Virus record (IMG/VR): IMGVR_UViG_3300025896_000194
Coordinates: 1-22,928 of that record
Direction: 5' to 3' (one strand)
Source: a virus
Length of the DNA stretch: 22,928 nucleotides
The first letter of the stretch is position 1, and every line of letters starts with the position of its first letter. The notes below the pieces were generated by a model. That model was not told where the DNA came from. It made no database searches and saw only the letters and a program-made list of their open reading frames with translations. Positions 8,035 through 22,928 of this stretch are shown piece after piece. Made by a program: the position numbers and the translations under genes.

Positions 8035-8679
8035 ATGGAAAACCTTCTGGCCGTAGAAGAAAAATTCTCCGAAACCGTTTCCCGCTATCTCTCGCGGGAG
8101 ATGGGGAAAGGGAAAGATGCGCGGAAGACGATGGAGCGGCTTATGGGTGATTGGGTGATTAAGGCCCTCGTAATCACCAAACGGGCAGAAAGGGCCAATA
8201 TTAAATCTCAGTTAATGGCCCCGTATCGCGGGCGCATACCGACAACCCGCGCCAAACGGTCAAAACTGGCGCATGAAATGGCGGAGACGAACGCATTGGT
8301 TCATATCCGGCACATCAACTACAAGGGAGCCAGAGGGCTATCCTTTGCGGAACTACGGAAACTCGCCCGTGTCTATGTAGCCCGCCGCATGTTCGCCGCG
8401 GGCCTGCACCGCGCAGGCTACATGCCAGCACTCCGCAAGCTCCGCCGCTCTGCGGGAGAAAGGCCGCCGCGCTACAAGAACGAACCCGGCACAGAACCGC
8501 GATGGACCGACACGCCGGAATCCCTTACGCTGGAGGTGATGAACTTTGCCAAGGTTATTGCGGTAATCTCGCCGCAAGCATTTGAACTTGGCGCAAAAGG
8601 GACGCAAGCCACTATTGCCGGATGGTTATCTGAAGACCTTCTAAAACAGATGAACCGCGCTGGACTCAACGCCAAATAG
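8035..8679 (+). CDS. basic neck/minor tail protein candidate (gpZ position)
   Basis: A 214-aa Lys/Arg-rich protein, largely helical by composition (ELRKLARVYVARRMFAAGLH in the middle) with a more mixed C-terminal third (TDTPESLTLEVMNF, FAKVIAVISPQAFELGAKG). It occupies the slot of lambda gpZ or HK97 gp10, proteins at the head-tail interface. Strong positive charge would suit contact with DNA or an acidic portal face. I see no diagnostic motif, so the assignment is by order and charge. The leader has repeat copy 2 and an A-rich run but no G-rich Shine-Dalgarno. Confidence 0.45.
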   Translation: MENLLAVEEKFSETVSRYLSREMGKGKDARKTMERLMGDWVIKALVITKRAERANIKSQLMAPYRGRIPTTRAKRSKLAHEMAETNALVHIRHINYKGARGLSFAELRKLARVYVARRMFAAGLHRAGYMPALRKLRRSAGERPPRYKNEPGTEPRWTDTPESLTLEVMNFAKVIAVISPQAFELGAKGTQATIAGWLSEDLLKQMNRAGLNAK

Positions 8680-8680
8680 C

Positions 8681-9199
8681 ATGACCTCCCCCGTCGATTA
8701 CCTACTATCCCAAATGGAGGAACTGCTTGTAAACGGCAGCGTCGATTACGGTATTCCAGCCGTATTCCCTACCTCTGGTGATATTCCAGTCTATCGCGGG
8801 GATGCCCCCTTAACCATGCCGCTCCCGGTTCTGGCGCTCTGCCAGGATGGGGCTTGCAAGGAACGCCACCTTCAAGGGGCCGGAATGTGGGAAATCCCCG
8901 TATCGGCCCGCCTTGTTCTGGACCGCAACGGCACCCTTGGCGATACCCCGGCAGAAGTCGCCGCATCAATCCGCAGCTATGCCGATGATCTGGAGGCGGT
9001 TCTGACCATGAAGCTTCGGCTTGATGAAACGGACGAAACGGCCGGATTCTCTACCCCTGAAGAACGCCTTAGCTCCGATGATGTCCACGTTTGGGAAATC
9101 TCCGAAGTATCAATCGAAGCCGATACCGAACTGGAAGGCGACCCCGTCTGTGAGGTTAAATTCACCGCCTTCTGTTGCCACGCCGGAAAAGTAATCTGA
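8681..9199 (+). CDS. tail terminator-like protein (gpU position)
   Basis: A 172-aa alpha/beta protein. It opens with a helix (VDYLLSQMEELLVNG), then strands (PLPVLALCQDG, WEIPVSARLVLD) and a helix PAEVAASIRSYADDLEAVLT. It ends with strands (DDVHVWEISEVSIEAD, CEVKFTAFCCHAG). This arrangement and its place before the tube gene resemble tail terminator proteins (lambda gpU, HK97-type), which cap the tube and join it to the head. Direct identity to gpU is not evident. It starts 1 base after the previous stop. Confidence 0.5.
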   Translation: MTSPVDYLLSQMEELLVNGSVDYGIPAVFPTSGDIPVYRGDAPLTMPLPVLALCQDGACKERHLQGAGMWEIPVSARLVLDRNGTLGDTPAEVAASIRSYADDLEAVLTMKLRLDETDETAGFSTPEERLSSDDVHVWEISEVSIEADTELEGDPVCEVKFTAFCCHAGKVI

Positions 9200-16950: not shown

Positions 16951-17494
16951 AACAAAACCAGTCACCACGGCGATTATTCAACTGCCGGATGCTTGCCCGC
17001 CTGAATTTCCATTTCAGGCAATGAGTGAACATCCGTCAGAAATCACCAAGTTCATTCTGGTTGATTTTGGAGTCGCCGTGCCAAGCCCCGCGACCATCGA
17101 ACAGATGGAGGATATTCTGGATTTTGTTCCTACCTGCCAGCCGTTTTCCCGCATCACTTATCTGGACGGAGATGGGAAGCCTATCGGTTCAATGTCCTCA
17201 GCGGCCAAGGGGTATTCCCTGAATGACCGGCGATGGGATGACGGCAGGCATTATTGCCAAAGGGGGATTCTCGCTGTGCGTAGGATGTGGGCTGAGGGCG
17301 AAGCGCGGGGAATGATCCCCGGCGAAATCACCAGCCCCATCCCAACCCCCTACGTCCCGCCCGTAATCGAGCCTGCCGTATTTGTGGAACTCCCCCCGGT
17401 CTATGCCATCCAAGACCCGTCTGAACTTTACACCGATCCAATCCGCATCCTCCCGGAAGAACTCGCAAACCTTGACACTCCCCCAAAACCATGA
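16940..17494 (+). CDS. hypothetical tail protein with Pro-rich C-terminus, 184 aa
   Basis: The frame is open to 16895, but ATG 16940 (MAAKTKPV) leaves only an 11-base overlap with the previous gene and is preferred. The N-terminal two-thirds is alpha/beta (EITKFILVDFGVAVPSP, QPFSRITYLDGDGKPIGSM, GRHYCQRGILAVRRMWAEGE). The C-terminus is a Pro-rich linker-like tail (PIPTPYVPPVIEPAVFVELP). It is the last gene before the lysis cassette and joins it by ATGA. Possibly a tail-fibre attachment or assembly factor; no family recognised. Confidence 0.6.
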   Translation: MAAKTKPVTTAIIQLPDACPPEFPFQAMSEHPSEITKFILVDFGVAVPSPATIEQMEDILDFVPTCQPFSRITYLDGDGKPIGSMSSAAKGYSLNDRRWDDGRHYCQRGILAVRRMWAEGEARGMIPGEITSPIPTPYVPPVIEPAVFVELPPVYAIQDPSELYTDPIRILPEELANLDTPPKP

Positions 17495-17895
17495 CGCGAA
17501 TCCTTTTACTCTGCCTCGCGCTCCCGGCTTGCACGGTCCGGCCTATGATGAAATCAGGCGATTCCTATGTGAGTCTTGGCGGGTCGATCTTCACTAAGTC
17601 AGCCAATGAAACCGCTACGTATTCCGGGCCGCTTGGGAATCTCAGCTATGCCGACACAGGCAAGGATGAGACGGTAATTCCGGGAAAGATCGTGAATTAC
17701 TACGGCATCAAAGCCGCAACGGAAGCCGCAACGTCTGCCTTCCGCACTTCCGAAAGCACCACGCGCATTCTCGCCAAAGAGGAAACGAAGAAGGTTGGCA
17801 TTCAATCCGCCGCCGATGTGGAGAAGGTGAAGATTCTCAACCCGGTTGAGGAAGCGATTCCTGCCGCCGCAATCCCAACCCCTGCCGCGCCATGA
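17491..17895 (+). CDS. lipoprotein (outer spanin candidate)
   Basis: A 134-aa protein with a short lipoprotein-type signal: MTRILLLCLALPAC, with Cys14 as the likely lipidated residue (LPAC; Pro at -2 is unusual). The mature part has no further membrane helix, a helical Ala/Thr region (IKAATEAATSAFRTSES) and a Pro/Ala-rich end. It opens a tightly overlapping lysis cassette (ATGA joins on both sides). In diderm hosts outer spanins are small lipoproteins that link to an inner-membrane spanin and fuse the membranes; this gene with the next one would suit that pair. It is longer than most o-spanins, so an ordinary phage lipoprotein is the alternative. Confidence 0.6.
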   Translation: MTRILLLCLALPACTVRPMMKSGDSYVSLGGSIFTKSANETATYSGPLGNLSYADTGKDETVIPGKIVNYYGIKAATEAATSAFRTSESTTRILAKEETKKVGIQSAADVEKVKILNPVEEAIPAAAIPTPAAP

Positions 17896-18161
17896 CCATT
17901 GACGATACGGAACTACTCAAGACCGCCGTTGGATGGGTCGCCGCAATCGGAACAACCTTGACCGGCTCCGTTGCTTATCTCTTTTCCCAAGTCGTCGCAC
18001 TCAACCGCAAGGTTGGGCATATGGAATCTGAGATTGAAGAATACAAACGCGACATTGCCGAATACAAAAACTGCCCGATTCCGCAATGCCATTTCCGAAT
18101 GATCAAGCTCCGCAAGGAATGGACTGACACCGTAGCCAAACTCAAAACAACGACATCATGA
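17892..18161 (+). CDS. membrane protein with coiled coil (inner spanin or holin candidate)
   Basis: Eighty-nine aa: an N-terminal transmembrane helix (about 12-34, AVGWVAAIGTTLTGSVAYLF) followed by a coiled coil (LNRKVGHMESEIEEYKRD, then IAEYKN). Next come two Cys in NCPIPQCHF and a basic end. The N-in membrane helix plus periplasmic coiled coil is the layout of Rz-type inner spanins, and a lipoprotein gene lies just upstream. The order (lipoprotein first) is reversed compared with Rz/Rz1. A small holin accessory is the other possibility. ATGA overlaps on both sides. Confidence 0.6.
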   Translation: MTIDDTELLKTAVGWVAAIGTTLTGSVAYLFSQVVALNRKVGHMESEIEEYKRDIAEYKNCPIPQCHFRMIKLRKEWTDTVAKLKTTTS

Positions 18162-18376
18162 ATGAAATCACCAAATCCAAATCCATCTTCAAATCCAAGT
18201 CAGTCTTTGCCGGGGTCTTGGTTGCCGTGGCCGGTGCTCTTGGTTCCTTCGCACCAGACCTCGCCCCGTGGCTTGCGGCTCATGCTGACGTTGTGCTCAT
18301 GGCTGCGGGCATTCTGCAAGTTGGTTTGCGCATGGTTACCAAAGGCAGCGTTACCCTGTTTGGTGATTCTGACTAG
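18158..18376 (+). CDS. holin candidate, two membrane helices
   Basis: Seventy-two aa with a Lys-rich N-terminus (MNEITKSKSIFKSK), two hydrophobic helices (SVFAGVLVAVAGALGSFAP and ADVVLMAAGILQVGLRMV) and a short polar end. Size and two-helix hairpin fit a holin, which forms membrane lesions that release the endolysin. Located in the cassette that ends in a CHAP endolysin. A second ATG, at 18162 in the +1 frame, opens an ORF that covers this whole gene and continues past it. Confidence 0.6.
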   Translation: MNEITKSKSIFKSKSVFAGVLVAVAGALGSFAPDLAPWLAAHADVVLMAAGILQVGLRMVTKGSVTLFGDSD

Positions 18377-18563
18377 TTGTTCCCACGACTACCGGACGGC
18401 AAAACAAACCCTGACCTCCGCACAACTTGATTCCTGGGCAACCCCAATCCACCCGGAACCGCTTCAATTTACCCCCCTGATCCCCCGCACTTATTCAGAA
18501 CTAGAAAGGCAAGCCGCAGATGAACAGGAAGCCCTCAAGACCTTACGCGCCCTTGGATTCTGA
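18321..18563 (+). CDS. small lipoprotein overlapping the holin gene (spanin candidate)
   Basis: In a different frame from the holin, codons from TTG 18321 read a lipoprotein-like signal. Lys8 is followed by the hydrophobic stretch AALPCLVILTSC, with the LTSC lipobox cysteine at 18378-18380. The mature part (about 61 aa) is hydrophilic with a helix YSELERQAADEQEALKTLRA. Only this frame fills most of 18377-18563. The same frame is open back to ATG 18162, only 4 bases from the holin start, giving a 133-aa version with an odd Ser/Pro-rich N-terminus; the start is therefore uncertain. Overlapping or embedded lipoproteins are typical of outer spanins. Confidence 0.5.
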   Translation: MVCAWLPKAALPCLVILTSCSHDYRTAKQTLTSAQLDSWATPIHPEPLQFTPLIPRTYSELERQAADEQEALKTLRALGF

Positions 18564-18666: not shown

Positions 18667-18890
18667 AAACTTACCTCCTTAAATACCTCGCCACCTGGCT
18701 TGCGGATAACAATAAGCAAGTCGTCGGCTACATCATCGAAGCCATCAAGACGGCAGATAATCGTTTCGAGAAGGGGCCGGAAAAGCTCCGATTCGTTCGG
18801 ACTGCCGCTGTCTCCTTCCTGAATGACAAGGCTGGATGGTTGGTGGACACGATTATTCACCTTCTCTTGGCTTGGACCCGTAAGGCATGA
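18663..18890 (+). CDS. small helical lysis-cassette protein, 75 aa
   Basis: The frame is open to ATG 18588, but 18663 (MKTYLLKYLATWLADNNK) gives the ATGA overlap and is preferred. Helical throughout, with amphipathic segments (QVVGYIIEAIKTADNRFEKG, KLRFVRTAAVSFLND) and a hydrophobic C-terminal helix (GWLVDTIIHLLLAWTRKA). The middle faintly recalls the soluble half of some small phage holins, but this is not firm. It is joined to the endolysin by another ATGA overlap, so it is probably a membrane-associated lysis factor. Confidence 0.55.
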   Translation: MKTYLLKYLATWLADNNKQVVGYIIEAIKTADNRFEKGPEKLRFVRTAAVSFLNDKAGWLVDTIIHLLLAWTRKA

Positions 18891-19399
18891 GCACGCTACC
18901 CCTTAGATTGCGCCTAATCTCAACCGCCCGAAATGAAGTCGGAACGGTGGAATCATCACGCAATACAGGGAAGCGCATCCGCGAGTATCAAGCCGCAACG
19001 AATCTAGGCGGAACTAGCTGGCCATGGTGCGCGGCATTCGTCTGTTGGTGTATCCGTGAATGGGGGAAGGATGCGGAAGTATTAAAGGCGCTCGGAAAGT
19101 CACCGGCTCAGTTTGAGAAGTGGCGACCAAAGACCGCCGCTGCATTCGGCTTTGAGGATTGGGCACGGAAGAACGGGCTTCTAATCCTTACCGACAGCCA
19201 ACAAAACCAACTACGCACAGGTGATTTGATCGTGTTTGATATGTCTCATATCGGGATCGTGGTCAACGATTCTGGAACCAAGGTATTCACCGTGGAAGGG
19301 AATACAGGCCCATCCGGGGGCCGTGAAGGAGATGGGGTATGGGAGAAAGTCCGTAACCGCCCGGAGGCCCGTTCATTTATCCGGCTATTGCCACCATGA
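18887..19399 (+). CDS. endolysin with CHAP domain
   Basis: A 170-aa single-domain peptidoglycan hydrolase of the CHAP (NlpC/P60-like) type. Catalytic features visible: Cys48 in GTSWPWCAAFVCWC, His121 in DMSHIGIVV and a polar residue in VEGNTG (E137/N139). CHAP enzymes cut peptide bonds or the amidase bond in peptidoglycan. No signal peptide, so release depends on a holin from the adjacent genes. No separate cell-wall-binding domain, which is usual for phages of diderm hosts. Start overlaps the previous stop (ATGA) and the stop overlaps the fibre gene (ATGA). Confidence 0.88.
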   Translation: MSTLPLRLRLISTARNEVGTVESSRNTGKRIREYQAATNLGGTSWPWCAAFVCWCIREWGKDAEVLKALGKSPAQFEKWRPKTAAAFGFEDWARKNGLLILTDSQQNQLRTGDLIVFDMSHIGIVVNDSGTKVFTVEGNTGPSGGREGDGVWEKVRNRPEARSFIRLLPP

Positions 19400-21150
19400 G
19401 AAACATTATCACCATCCTATTTCTGGCCGTATCCGCCGCCTCCGCACTAGCTCAGGCGCGGATCATTAACACCACAGCAACCCGCCCCGTCACGGAAGCG
19501 CCTGCAATCTCAGCCTATCGCGCTAATGCCCTGACGTTCCGGGTTAAACTGGACGCAACCCGTCCAACCCTGACCGGCGTAACGACTCTCACGGCAGAAA
19601 TCCGGGCAAGCAAGCTGGATACCGGCGCGCCCCTTGCGGCTACAGACATAGACGCACCAACCGAGGCAGGGCCTTTCGACATTGAAATGACGGCGGGGCA
19701 GATGAACCAATCCCTTAATGGGGCGGCATCCGGCGTCTTTTGGTTGGTGATTTATACTATCGCGCCAAACGACGTTCTGGACGTGCTTTATACGGCTCCG
19801 TTAAAGCTGATGGAGCACGGGGCAAGCCTGACCGCTCCCTCCCCACCTAATACCGCAATTGCGCTTACCCGGTCCGCTGCCGATGCGCTTTATACCACCT
19901 TGGCCGCTACTGCCGCACTGGATGTCCGTGTAACCGATCTGGAAGCCGGGACCGGAACTGATACCGTCCTTGGGGATTCTGATGGCGTTGGCGTGAGTGA
20001 TTCTAGCGACTTATGGGTATCAGACGGCACGCCAGCCGGAGCGGTGGACCTGACGCCATATGCTCTGACCGCAACCATTGCCGCCGGGTATCAACCACTT
20101 GATTCCGACCTGACTTCACTGGCCGCTCTGGCATCAACTACTTTCGGGCGGGGTTTGATTACCACAGTGGATGCGGCGGGACTTCGGACATCTGCGGGAC
20201 TCGGAACCCTCGCCACTCAATCAGGGACGTTTAGCGGAACTAGCAGCGGAACCAATACCGGGGACCAAGACCTTTCCGGCTACCTCGCCAGCGCGACCGC
20301 CGCGACAACCTACGTGCCTGTAACCCGCACGATCAACGGAAGCGCCCTGTCTTCCGATGTCACAATTTCAACCATCACGGGCAATGCGGGAACGGCTACG
20401 GCTCTAGCGACCCCCCGCGCAATCAATGGAACCAACTTTGATGGTTCCGCCGCAATCACTGTAACCGCAGCAGCCGCAACCTTGACCGGCAACACGCTGA
20501 ATGCCGCCGTGACCGCCAGTAGCCTTACCAGCGCAGCGGGCGGGGCCTTTGGAACCGGGGCTTATGCCGCCACACCAACACGGGCAACCCTTGGGCTGGC
20601 AACGTCCGACTCCCCGGCATTCGCCGCGCTTTCACTGGCGGGGCAATCCCTCACCGGAACGCAAGCCACTAGCCTGGCTGAGATTGCAACAACGTGGAAC
20701 ACGACTGGTATTCCAACCGCATTTAAACTGGACGTAACAAACACCGCCAGCAATGCCGCGAGTTCACTGATGGATTTACGGTCGGGCGGAATAAGCCGTT
20801 TCAGGGTGCAGGTTGACGGGCAGGTTTATGGATCGGTTGCTTCGTTTGCAAGTTACGCACTCATCCCCGCCATTTTCGCAAGGTCAGCCACGGGTCGCTT
20901 TGTGATGGGTGCTGCTGACGATGTGGCCTTGCAACGCAACGCCGCAGGAGTCGCCGAAATCAACAGCGGCACCACCAACGCCTATCGGGATTTGCGGGTG
21001 CGCAGCATCATCGCACAACCTCCCGCAACCATCACCCCGGCCAGCAACGGCGACATGGTTTTCGAGGCCACCAGCAACACCAGCGTGACCCTAAAACTCA
21101 AAGGCACCGATGGCACAGTTCGCAGCGTCGTCTTGACTCTGGCGCCATAA
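19396..21150 (+). CDS. fibre-like protein with Sec signal peptide, 584 aa
   Basis: The N-terminus MRNIITILFLAVSAASALAQ is a textbook signal peptide (cleavage after ALA), which is not normal for a tail fibre. Residues 22-150 form an unrecognised beta domain. The rest is low-complexity Thr/Ala/Gly/Ser sequence with fibre hallmarks: YQPLDSDLTSLAALAS, GLRTSAGLGTLATQSGTFSG and the repeat GNAGTATALATPRAINGT (near residue 330), as in T4- and stf-like fibres. The C-terminus (NGDMVFEATSNTSVTLKLKG) is of a type I recall at the ends of many phage fibres. Starts by ATGA overlap with the endolysin. Either a side fibre or an exported adhesin-like protein. Confidence 0.75.
   Translation: MRNIITILFLAVSAASALAQARIINTTATRPVTEAPAISAYRANALTFRVKLDATRPTLTGVTTLTAEIRASKLDTGAPLAATDIDAPTEAGPFDIEMTAGQMNQSLNGAASGVFWLVIYTIAPNDVLDVLYTAPLKLMEHGASLTAPSPPNTAIALTRSAADALYTTLAATAALDVRVTDLEAGTGTDTVLGDSDGVGVSDSSDLWVSDGTPAGAVDLTPYALTATIAAGYQPLDSDLTSLAALASTTFGRGLITTVDAAGLRTSAGLGTLATQSGTFSGTSSGTNTGDQDLSGYLASATAATTYVPVTRTINGSALSSDVTISTITGNAGTATALATPRAINGTNFDGSAAITVTAAAATLTGNTLNAAVTASSLTSAAGGAFGTGAYAATPTRATLGLATSDSPAFAALSLAGQSLTGTQATSLAEIATTWNTTGIPTAFKLDVTNTASNAASSLMDLRSGGISRFRVQVDGQVYGSVASFASYALIPAIFARSATGRFVMGAADDVALQRNAAGVAEINSGTTNAYRDLRVRSIIAQPPATITPASNGDMVFEATSNTSVTLKLKGTDGTVRSVVLTLAP
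20101..20126 (+). repeat. fibre DNA repeat, copy 1
   Basis: This stretch matches 23 of 26 bases at 21359-21384 in the next fibre gene. It encodes DSDLTSLAA, a motif common in phage fibres (LDADLTALAAL type). Such shared words allow recombination between fibre genes. Confidence 0.6.
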
Positions 21151-21160
21151 TCAAAATCAC

Positions 21161-22264
21161 ATGAAATCAAAAATCACCGTAATCACTCTCGCCCTGGCTG
21201 GCGCGGCTTGTGCCGCCTGGACACCAAAGGATTCCGCCGTGGATTACCCCACGATGACCGTTCCCGCAGCCGGAGACGCTATCCCGATTTGGGATGCAGG
21301 CACGGATGCAACGCAGCAGATTTTCTGGAGCACGTTTGTAAGCTCGTTTCAGGGATTAGATGCCGACCTGACTTCATGGGCCGCAATCACCCCCGGAACC
21401 GGAATCGCAACCGCTCTTGCCGTCAACGTCGGGTCGGCTGGCGCTCCAGTCCTATTCAACGGAGCGGGCGGAACTCCATCATCCCTGACCGGAACCAACA
21501 TCACCGGAACCGCAACCGGCCTTACCGCTGGCATTTCCAACGGGCTTAAGTCCGCAACCACTACCGTCAGCGTATCGGCAGCAACTGCACCAAGCTCAGG
21601 TCAGGTTTTGACCGCTACAAGCTCAACCGCCGCAACATGGCAATCAGTAACCGGAACCGGCGACGTAACCGCCGCCTCCGCATTCGGAACTGATAACGTC
21701 CTGATCCGATCCGATGGAACCGGCAAGGGAACGCAAGCCACCGGGATTACCGTAAGCGATGGGGATGCAATCAGTGGGGTTGCCAGCATTGCAACAACTG
21801 GCGCAGTTACTGCCGGTTCACTGGAATTTGAAGGAGCTACCGCAGACGCATTTGAAACTACTATTGCTGTCACTGACCCGACCGCAGACAATACCCTCAC
21901 GCTTCCGAACGCATCCGGCACAGTCGCCCTTGCCCAAATCGTCACAAAGTCCACCGCCGCAAACTACACCATCGGCACCACGGATAGCCGGGAACTCTAC
22001 GGCGGAACCATCTACGTCACAGGCGCGGCAACCATTACCATTCCAGCCGTAGCCGCAGGGGCATCCTTTACGGTCATTACGATTGGGGCCGTTGCGGTAT
22101 CAGTGGACCCGAACGCCGCAGACCTGATCTATCTGGACGGAACCGCACTGGCTGACGGGGATAAAGTCACCAACACCAGCACAGCGGGGGACGTTGCTGT
22201 ATTTACCTATCTGGACGGGACGGGATGGTATGCTTCAACAAACGCGTGGACGGACGGAAACTAA
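21161..22264 (+). CDS. second fibre-like protein with signal peptide, 367 aa
   Basis: The N-terminus MKSKITVITLALAGAACAAW is again signal-peptide-like (cleavage probably near ACA); the Cys lacks a good lipobox. The body repeats fibre motifs: LDADLTSWAAITPGTG, SSLTGTNITGTATGLTAG, VTGTGDVTAASAFGTDN and NTLTLPNASGTVALAQ. The C-terminus (IYLDGTALADGDKVTNTS ending WYASTNAWTDGN) resembles the compact beta-rich tip domains of phage receptor-binding proteins. It lies 10 bases after the first fibre gene and shares a 26-base DNA repeat with it. A receptor-binding role is inferred. Confidence 0.72.
   Translation: MKSKITVITLALAGAACAAWTPKDSAVDYPTMTVPAAGDAIPIWDAGTDATQQIFWSTFVSSFQGLDADLTSWAAITPGTGIATALAVNVGSAGAPVLFNGAGGTPSSLTGTNITGTATGLTAGISNGLKSATTTVSVSAATAPSSGQVLTATSSTAATWQSVTGTGDVTAASAFGTDNVLIRSDGTGKGTQATGITVSDGDAISGVASIATTGAVTAGSLEFEGATADAFETTIAVTDPTADNTLTLPNASGTVALAQIVTKSTAANYTIGTTDSRELYGGTIYVTGAATITIPAVAAGASFTVITIGAVAVSVDPNAADLIYLDGTALADGDKVTNTSTAGDVAVFTYLDGTGWYASTNAWTDGN
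21359..21384 (+). repeat. fibre DNA repeat, copy 2
   Basis: Counterpart of 20101-20126, encoding DADLTSWAA. The three mismatches include a change from CT to TG inside ACTGG/ATGGG that alters Leu to Trp. Confidence 0.6.
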
Positions 22265-22268
22265 GAGT

Positions 22269-22928
22269 ATGAGACACCATTCATCCATTGCGCGGAAAAA
22301 AGCCGGAGCCAATGAACCGGTTCCCTTCGACATCGTCGTCAACTTCTCCGACGGCTCCGGCGCCATGACTGCCGCGAAGATGCAAAACGGCACCCATGGC
22401 GCGACATCATGGGGAACATGGGCGGAGGTTGGTGCTATTGATTACACCACTATTGAGGATCACGACGCATCCCTGCCGTTCAATCTCATTTGCAATGGGG
22501 TCAGTTATAACGGCACAGAGGCCGCGACGAAGGGGTTGACATTTGACTTTTCAACCGCACCAACAAATGACGATGTTTTCAGCTATGTGCTTTCAGGGAC
22601 AAGGCAGGATTGCGTCTTTTTGATTTTGGTAAAATTCGCAACCATCGCATCAGGCTCACCGGTCAGCTACAATAACGACATTTTCCAGATTTCCGGAGCG
22701 GACTATACAATTGTTCAGCGCCAGCATAGCTTCAACGGGACTAAAACATTTTACGCTCATGCCGAGGGCGACCTGGGCGGGGTTATTCCAGACCCGGAGG
22801 ATTGGGTGATTATCTGCGGGAGACATAACGTAATTGGCGGAGTCGGGGAAATGTTTGTTCAGGCCGCTTCCACCGGGGTTGTATTAGGGGCGTCAGAAGT
22901 GACTCACACCACCCCAGCCGGGGATACG
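22269..22928 (+). CDS. fibre-associated or lectin-like protein (5' part, runs off the window)
   Basis: ATG at 22269, 4 bases after the previous stop, opens 220 codons with no stop before the window ends. The N-terminus MRHHSSIARKKAGANEPV is basic and not a signal peptide, unlike the two previous fibres. The chain is beta-rich with aromatic and Gly positions (VPFDIVVNFSDGSGAMT, TSWGTWAEVGAIDYTTI, DIFQISGADYTIVQRQHSF, KTFYAHAEGDLGG), giving a concanavalin/LamG-like impression. This fold call is by feel only. Position suggests a tip, chaperone or receptor-binding partner of the fibres. Confidence 0.65.
   Translation, partial: MRHHSSIARKKAGANEPVPFDIVVNFSDGSGAMTAAKMQNGTHGATSWGTWAEVGAIDYTTIEDHDASLPFNLICNGVSYNGTEAATKGLTFDFSTAPTNDDVFSYVLSGTRQDCVFLILVKFATIASGSPVSYNNDIFQISGADYTIVQRQHSFNGTKTFYAHAEGDLGGVIPDPEDWVIICGRHNVIGGVGEMFVQAASTGVVLGASEVTHTTPAGDT

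Follow-up and report, generated by a model that had tools for sequence, protein, structure and literature searches.

The window, a 22.9-kb IMG/VR virus record (IMGVR_UViG_3300025896_000194) taken over its whole length, has a lambda-like gene order that runs from large terminase, portal, protease, and major head protein through tail and lysis genes to an endolysin, gpA, gpB, and the start of gpC. Our subject is gpA and gpB, two neighboring fibre-type genes whose products both begin with a predicted Sec signal peptide (SP). An earlier note on this DNA had pointed to these SPs as unexpected on tail fibres. The two genes and their parts are as follows.

19396..21150, + strand: gpA, 584 amino acids (aa), SP-bearing tail-fibre protein (phrog_1833 tail fibre; homologues)
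19396..19452, + strand: gpA Sec SP, residues 1-19, MRNIITILFLAVSAASALA followed by Q (scorer, shuffles, start codons, L207A)
19453..19860, + strand: gpA N-terminal domain, residues 20-155 (homologues with SP in L207, remote without SP in L371)
20320..20517, + strand: gpA fibre stretch, residues 309-374 (phrog_1833 match, E=2e-9)
20581..20835, + strand: gpA residues 396-480 (~50-59% identity to SP-less fibres of L084/L085/L088/L089/L086)
21037..21144, + strand: gpA C-terminal stretch, residues 548-583 (resembles the tail-adhesin C-terminus of Vi01-type Salmonella phages)
21161..22264, + strand: gpB, 367 aa, SP-bearing fibre-like protein (repeats, L207B homology)
21161..21214, + strand: gpB Sec SP, residues 1-18, MKSKITVITLALAGAACA followed by A (scorer, shuffles; L207B counterpart MKYFLIFCLLALPAWG followed by A)
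21215..21391, + strand: gpB residues 19-77, weakly like the Met1-starting N-terminal module of SP-less fibres, e.g. L194

Signal peptides were called with a rule-based scorer that looks for a positive n-region, a hydrophobic core, and agreement with the -3/-1 rule; its first, looser version recognized 14/14 E. coli signal or lipoprotein peptides. The gpA start (MRNIITILFLAVSAASALA followed by QARI) scored 11.7 and the gpB start (MKSKITVITLALAGAACA followed by AWTP) scored 10.0, with false-positive rates on shuffles of the two proteins of 1.0% and 0.5%, respectively. At these rates, two adjacent SPs are unlikely to occur by chance. Both N-termini read exactly as the earlier note had quoted them, and scorer and shuffles agree with its assignment to the Sec type: each has a short positive n-region, a hydrophobic core that is strong rather than marginal, and an A-x-A type cleavage site near residue 20. 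The possibility that a downstream Met is the true start is ruled out for gpA, which has no in-frame ATG, GTG, or TTG between Met1 and Met98, and is unlikely for gpB, where GTG27 and ATG32 lie in frame, because the gpB homologue described below (L207B) has an SP of its own. We consider it quite probable that both SPs are functional export signals.

The fibre character of the two neighbors, also claimed earlier, was borne out for gpA by its phrog_1833 match and for gpB, which begins 10 bases past the gpA stop, by its repeats and by the tail-fibre and baseplate family matches of L207B. The gpB repeats resemble many phage fibre open reading frames (ORFs), and gpB itself had no family match in Pfam and PHROG scans. 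In BLASTP, gpB from residue 19 onward aligns to the SP-less fibre L194 from residue 2; by profile comparison the likeness of this region to the SP-less module is weak for gpB alone (E=0.27). The gpA N-terminal domain belongs to no named family among its PHROG and Pfam matches, and its profile gave chance matches only against the sequences of solved structures. Single-sequence AlphaFold models of gpA and gpB (pLDDT 34 and 38) were unusable.

Three kinds of known exported protein were considered and rejected. Neither protein has the lipobox of an Llp/Cor-type lipoprotein exclusion factor, and their sizes are 584 and 367 aa; neither has a muralytic domain after the signal (no Pfam match), as a signal-arrest-release (SAR) endolysin would; and there was no Pfam match for the C-terminal outer-membrane anchor of a trimeric autotransporter adhesin, the gpA C-terminus being like that of phage tail adhesins.

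Close homologues of gpA and gpB were found, via gpB, in one place only, an unrelated Mu-like contig, L207 (PF10123 protease, phrog_1005 head protein), where they are adjacent, in the same order, and both SP-bearing. L207A (226 aa; MFRFSLLLFLALAGPLQA followed by QVRS) is 50% identical to gpA 19-195, and L207B (424 aa; MKYFLIFCLLALPAWG followed by AQQS), whose start overlaps the L207A stop (ATGA), is 55% identical to gpB 21-221. In this single independent homologue pair, the SP sequences have diverged from those of the window, and the SP type and A-x-A type c-regions are kept. Two further genes with SP-like starts come after L207B, the last of which has a lipoprotein-type score. With the N-terminal 160 aa of gpA as query, a viral scan found nothing, and a scan with the gpA N-terminal profile lacking the SP returned L207 alone. 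L207B matches several tail-fibre and baseplate families, and its residues 17-19 correspond to position 2 of both phrog_677 (baseplate wedge-tail fibre connector) and phrog_958 (baseplate wedge); PF07880 (T4 gp9/10 N-terminal), below cut-off, also begins at position 2 there. From this alignment, the SP of L207B is placed exactly in front of a predicted virion-attachment module that in other phages starts at Met1. The suggestion that the N-termini were captured from host secreted proteins finds no support here; the bodies are virion-type modules, and the L207B SP precedes position 2 of the baseplate/fibre-connector families.

Homologues with and without an SP, which the earlier note had proposed to look for, both exist. 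Colinearity with the window was seen in L084, L085, L088, and L089 (supplemented by L164-L168 on the terminase side), where protein identity is ~55-95% over most genes, the tape-measure-like and capsid genes being more diverged. Past the endolysin, they carry an HNH-like insertion, small ORFs, and an SP-less fibre starting MPDYTVKADVDSMLRADNDAGIRSAIGLG, which in L085 matches gpA residues 396-480 at 59% identity. The HNH-like insertion (8538-9185 in all four) lies right after the endolysin, at the junction where fibre modules are exchanged. L086, L087, and L091 share only the lysis genes with the window and have an SP-less fibre starting MAKQTINIGTTANDGTGDPIRAAFEKVNDNFTEIY, which in L086 has two stretches in common with gpA. 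From these matches, homologous shaft parts occur both with and without an SP; L371, described below, provides a further SP-less homologue. Among annotated isolates, no SP-bearing relative came to light: the homologues read, from two environmental podoviruses and from Bradyrhizobium and Sinorhizobium, were all SP-less, and L191 and L377 gave no match as tblastn queries.

The surprise of the earlier note at SPs on fibres was justified in that the SPs are real, and it needs revision in that they are no peculiarity of the window phage: SP-bearing fibres form a recurrent class. Among fibre-like ORFs recruited by the gpA/gpB repeats and reduced to 87 distinct N-termini, 18/87 had SP or lipoprotein calls, compared to 7/217 among the remaining large ORFs in those loci (Fisher p=3e-6); because the sample was recruited with window sequences, the first rate is no estimate for phages at large. 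Most of the seven SP-scoring non-fibre ORFs adjoin SP-bearing fibre-like genes. Moreover, cysteines are enriched in the SP-bearing fibres (7.6 per 1000 residues vs 3.4 in SP-less fibres; 21 SP-bearing fibres compared, five of them judged by eye) and are paired, with a neighboring cysteine within 20 residues for 81/114 (42.6 expected), compared to 57 observed and 40.7 expected in SP-less fibres. This pattern is that of disulphide-bonded exported proteins, and for gpA and gpB it can speak only indirectly. Two SP-bearing fibres (L183 and L217) end in a Peptidase_S74 chaperone domain, and that of L179 is part of a P22-like structural operon, flanked by head-closure Hc3 and a head-tail adaptor-like gene. 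Terminase_6N was found in 8/24 records with SP-bearing fibre-like ORFs, above cut-off in seven, and GpA_ATPase in 0/24, so the viral nature of the remaining records rests on IMG/VR and on neighboring genes. Consecutive SP-bearing genes, in runs of two to four, were also seen in L048 (7299-12991, directly after the terminase and a portal or head-tail adaptor-like gene), L231 (4252-5216), and L392 (3814-5614).

A genome scan with the endolysin as query gave mostly Verrucomicrobiota metagenome-assembled genomes and Burkholderiales, and a scan with the portal alignment gave nothing; on this basis we tentatively assign the window phage to a Verrucomicrobiota host. The profile of the gpA N-terminal domain without its SP matched 1/387 Verrucomicrobiota genomes, in a Mu-like prophage (L371) where an SP-less remote gpA homologue is followed by a 1288-aa SP-bearing protein. 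With the neighboring gene as anchor, which is present in 62/387 genomes, 20 loci were read and grouped after the data had been seen: SP-bearing genes are present in the clear fibre-type cases (L376-L380, L383, L388, L392, and L394), L391 and L393 are ambiguous, and the rest have no fibre gene at the anchor. The SP-bearing products of L383, L380, and L388 match tail-fibre or collar domains (phrog_523, E=2e-28; phrog_5073, E=1e-22; and phrog_4209, E=1e-12, respectively). In six prophages read downstream, phage genes end soon past a tape-measure-like and a hub-like gene, and host genes (e.g. dinB-like, mutS-like) come next in two. No SP-less fibre gene was recognized up to the prophage end in these six or in the upstream parts read in three. 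The SP-bearing proteins thus appear to be the only recognizable fibre candidates in the six prophages, where a receptor-binding hub, or a fibre that has diverged, could escape recognition.

The gene that precedes gpA and the one that follows gpB bear on expression and on the rest of the fibre module.

18887..19399, + strand: endolysin (CHAP; Pfam CHAP and PHROG endolysin matches), whose stop overlaps the gpA ATG (ATGA)
22269..22928, + strand: gpC, third gene of the module, no SP, no significant family, truncated by the contig end

The overlap of the endolysin stop with the gpA start implies that gpA is probably co-expressed with the lysis genes. The most likely explanation of these findings is that gpA and gpB are virion fibres or accessory proteins that are exported late through Sec and joined to particles at lysis. 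This reading builds on what is seen in the sequences, namely the presence of SPs, the way the parts are arranged, the conserved SP pair in L207, and the prophages that lack other recognizable fibres. Granted export, we lean slightly toward a virion-associated role. In its full form, in which gpA and gpB are members of a widespread fibre-module class with genuine, probably cleavable SPs before virion fibre parts, and in which export is followed by attachment at lysis, we hold the reading tentatively. Both proteins would be made late, coupled to the lysis genes, and exported by host Sec, and signal peptidase would remove the SP and free the native N-terminal attachment module. Folding would then take place in the periplasm, where disulphides could form in cysteine-bearing members of the class. 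When holin and endolysin open the cell, the fibres would encounter the tails, built in the cytoplasm, and bind them via the N-terminal module, which would place the final assembly step at or after lysis.

Several points weigh against late export and attachment at lysis. Export, cleavage, folding outside the cytoplasm, and attachment are each inferred from sequence, and we know of no natural tailed phage in which fibres attach after lysis. Mature gpA and gpB contain no cysteine, which limits the cysteine argument to the class. The contig stops within gpC, leaving room for an additional, conventional fibre in the window phage, and the fibre of Akkermansia phage Moulinsart has no SP, indicating that not all Verrucomicrobiota phages share the trait. 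Finally, an SP-like start need not mean export, because genes in the major-capsid position, whose products assemble in the cytoplasm, can have one as well: L207 3779-4756 has the SP-like leader MNPKPKTGRLTAVLALACTAPLWA followed by VNNSF, and L086 10849-12252 with the L087/L091-L098 group has MKKKPLIVLPVLAFSLTILT followed by MDASPLD, in each case preceding what is probably the native N-terminus. The junction in these capsid genes holds a GTG or ATG codon, and their real starts may be such internal codons.

These capsid leaders also favor the idea that gpA and gpB are not exported at all and remain cytoplasmic or in the virion, with the hydrophobic helix acting in packing or as a membrane-piercing anchor at the tail tip, as does the fact that the rest of virion assembly is cytoplasmic. 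We regard this as unlikely, because both members of the pair retain an A-x-A type c-region despite the drift of the SP sequences, cysteines are enriched and paired across the class, the L207B SP lies outside the virion module, and SP scores are rare among large non-fibre ORFs. The uncleaved virion anchor suggested in the earlier note is disfavored by the same conserved SP end and, for the class, by the cysteine pairing. Inefficient export that splits the protein between virion assembly in the cytoplasm and a secreted blocking form would square the virion modules with the SPs; given h-regions that are strong rather than marginal, it seems quite improbable. Still less credible is an artefact of wrong start codons or chance hydrophobic starts, which could appeal to GTG27 or ATG32 of gpB and is opposed by the absence of an alternative start in gpA, by the SPs of both L207 homologues, and by a chance of ~1% per protein.

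A somewhat stronger rival, which we still consider doubtful, accepts export and denies a place in the virion. As secreted or surface proteins, gpA and gpB would coat the receptors or glycans of the cell and its debris in the manner of T5 Llp, either preventing superinfection or preventing the loss of progeny by adsorption to debris. SPs that are real and conserved and the apparent coupling of expression to the lysis genes fit this view equally, and exported receptor blockers are known beside receptor-binding genes (T5 Llp; PMC9586334). By contrast, a lipobox is absent from both proteins, their size greatly exceeds that of Llp or Cor, members of the class bear virion-attachment modules and occupy structural operons, the class provides the only recognizable fibre candidates in several integrated prophages, and an SP-less fibre fills the gpA slot in relatives of the window. 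That they serve the infected cell in exclusion or as adhesins, also proposed earlier, is possible; an extra adhesin made by the lysogen is less favored, because the genes lie in late or structural operons and are the only recognizable fibre candidates in six prophages.

Further observations concern genes near those discussed above. Beside the lysis genes of the window, a small ORF (17491-17895) with a lipoprotein-like start (MTRILLLCLALPAC) is 76-80% conserved in relatives, and another (18162-18563; 56-67% conserved in relatives) overlaps the holin-like gene at 18158-18376 in another frame; it contains an ILTSC motif, matches LysC (Rz1-like) weakly, and is perhaps an overlapping Rz1. In several Verrucomicrobiota Mu-like prophages (L371, L377, L403, and L388), a small SP-bearing ORF adjoins the capsid gene.

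L371 5646-5978 (reverse complement) and L377 3379-4056: small SP-bearing ORF by the capsid gene
L403 19004-19393 and L388 605-1132 (reverse complement): small SP-bearing ORF by the capsid gene

Patatin-like ORFs (GGGxPGLDIHAGIW...GTSAGAI, by eye) sit near structural genes within such prophages (L404 12240-13052; L371 170-1054, reverse complement).

Tailed-phage assembly is taught as wholly cytoplasmic until lysis. The recurrence of SP-bearing fibres, including in prophages without other recognizable fibres, suggests that host-binding proteins leave the cytoplasm ahead of lysis in some tailed phages. The class would imply that the last assembly step can occur outside the cytoplasm or that fibre modules are reused as secreted blockers or adhesins. 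Split-compartment assembly, if true, would be a route undescribed for tailed phages. We think it possible, at rather less than even confidence, that there is a branch of tailed phages, prominent in Verrucomicrobiota, whose fibres are Sec-exported, mature beyond the cytoplasm, often with disulphides, and are mounted on particles only at lysis. In the literature consulted, mostly without subscription papers, we found no description of tailed-phage fibres that carry Sec signals. For annotation, where SPs are taken as a mark of cellular adhesins, SP-bearing phage fibre genes may be misfiled.

Among known systems, gpA, gpB, and their class are like the fibres of tailed phages (phrog_1833, phrog_677, phrog_523, Peptidase_S74) in their repeats, N-terminal attachment modules, C-terminal chaperone or collar domains, and gene position in structural or late operons. 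They differ in that ordinary fibres start with the module at Met1, whereas the SP class has a Sec SP before it. Virion proteins with cleavable signal peptides are established in filamentous phages (pIII and pVIII), which assemble at the inner membrane, whereas the window phage is tailed, with cytoplasmic heads and tails. T5 Llp, which blocks FhuA (PMC9586334), and Cor are likewise phage-coded, tied to host recognition, and exported, as is predicted here; gpA and gpB, however, are fibre-module proteins of several times that size and not lipoproteins. SAR endolysins and signal-sequence lysis proteins (e.g. JG068; PMC3765740) are also late phage proteins that use Sec, but gpA and gpB have no lytic domain, and their SP is of the cleavable rather than the signal-arrest type. 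A survey of diversity-generating retroelement targets reported signal peptides or transmembrane domains in most cellular target clusters and described viral targets mainly as tail proteins (PMC8144416). Bacterial secreted adhesins, including such cellular targets, similarly combine a signal peptide with binding domains, whereas the class of gpA and gpB lies in phage structural or late operons and carries virion modules.

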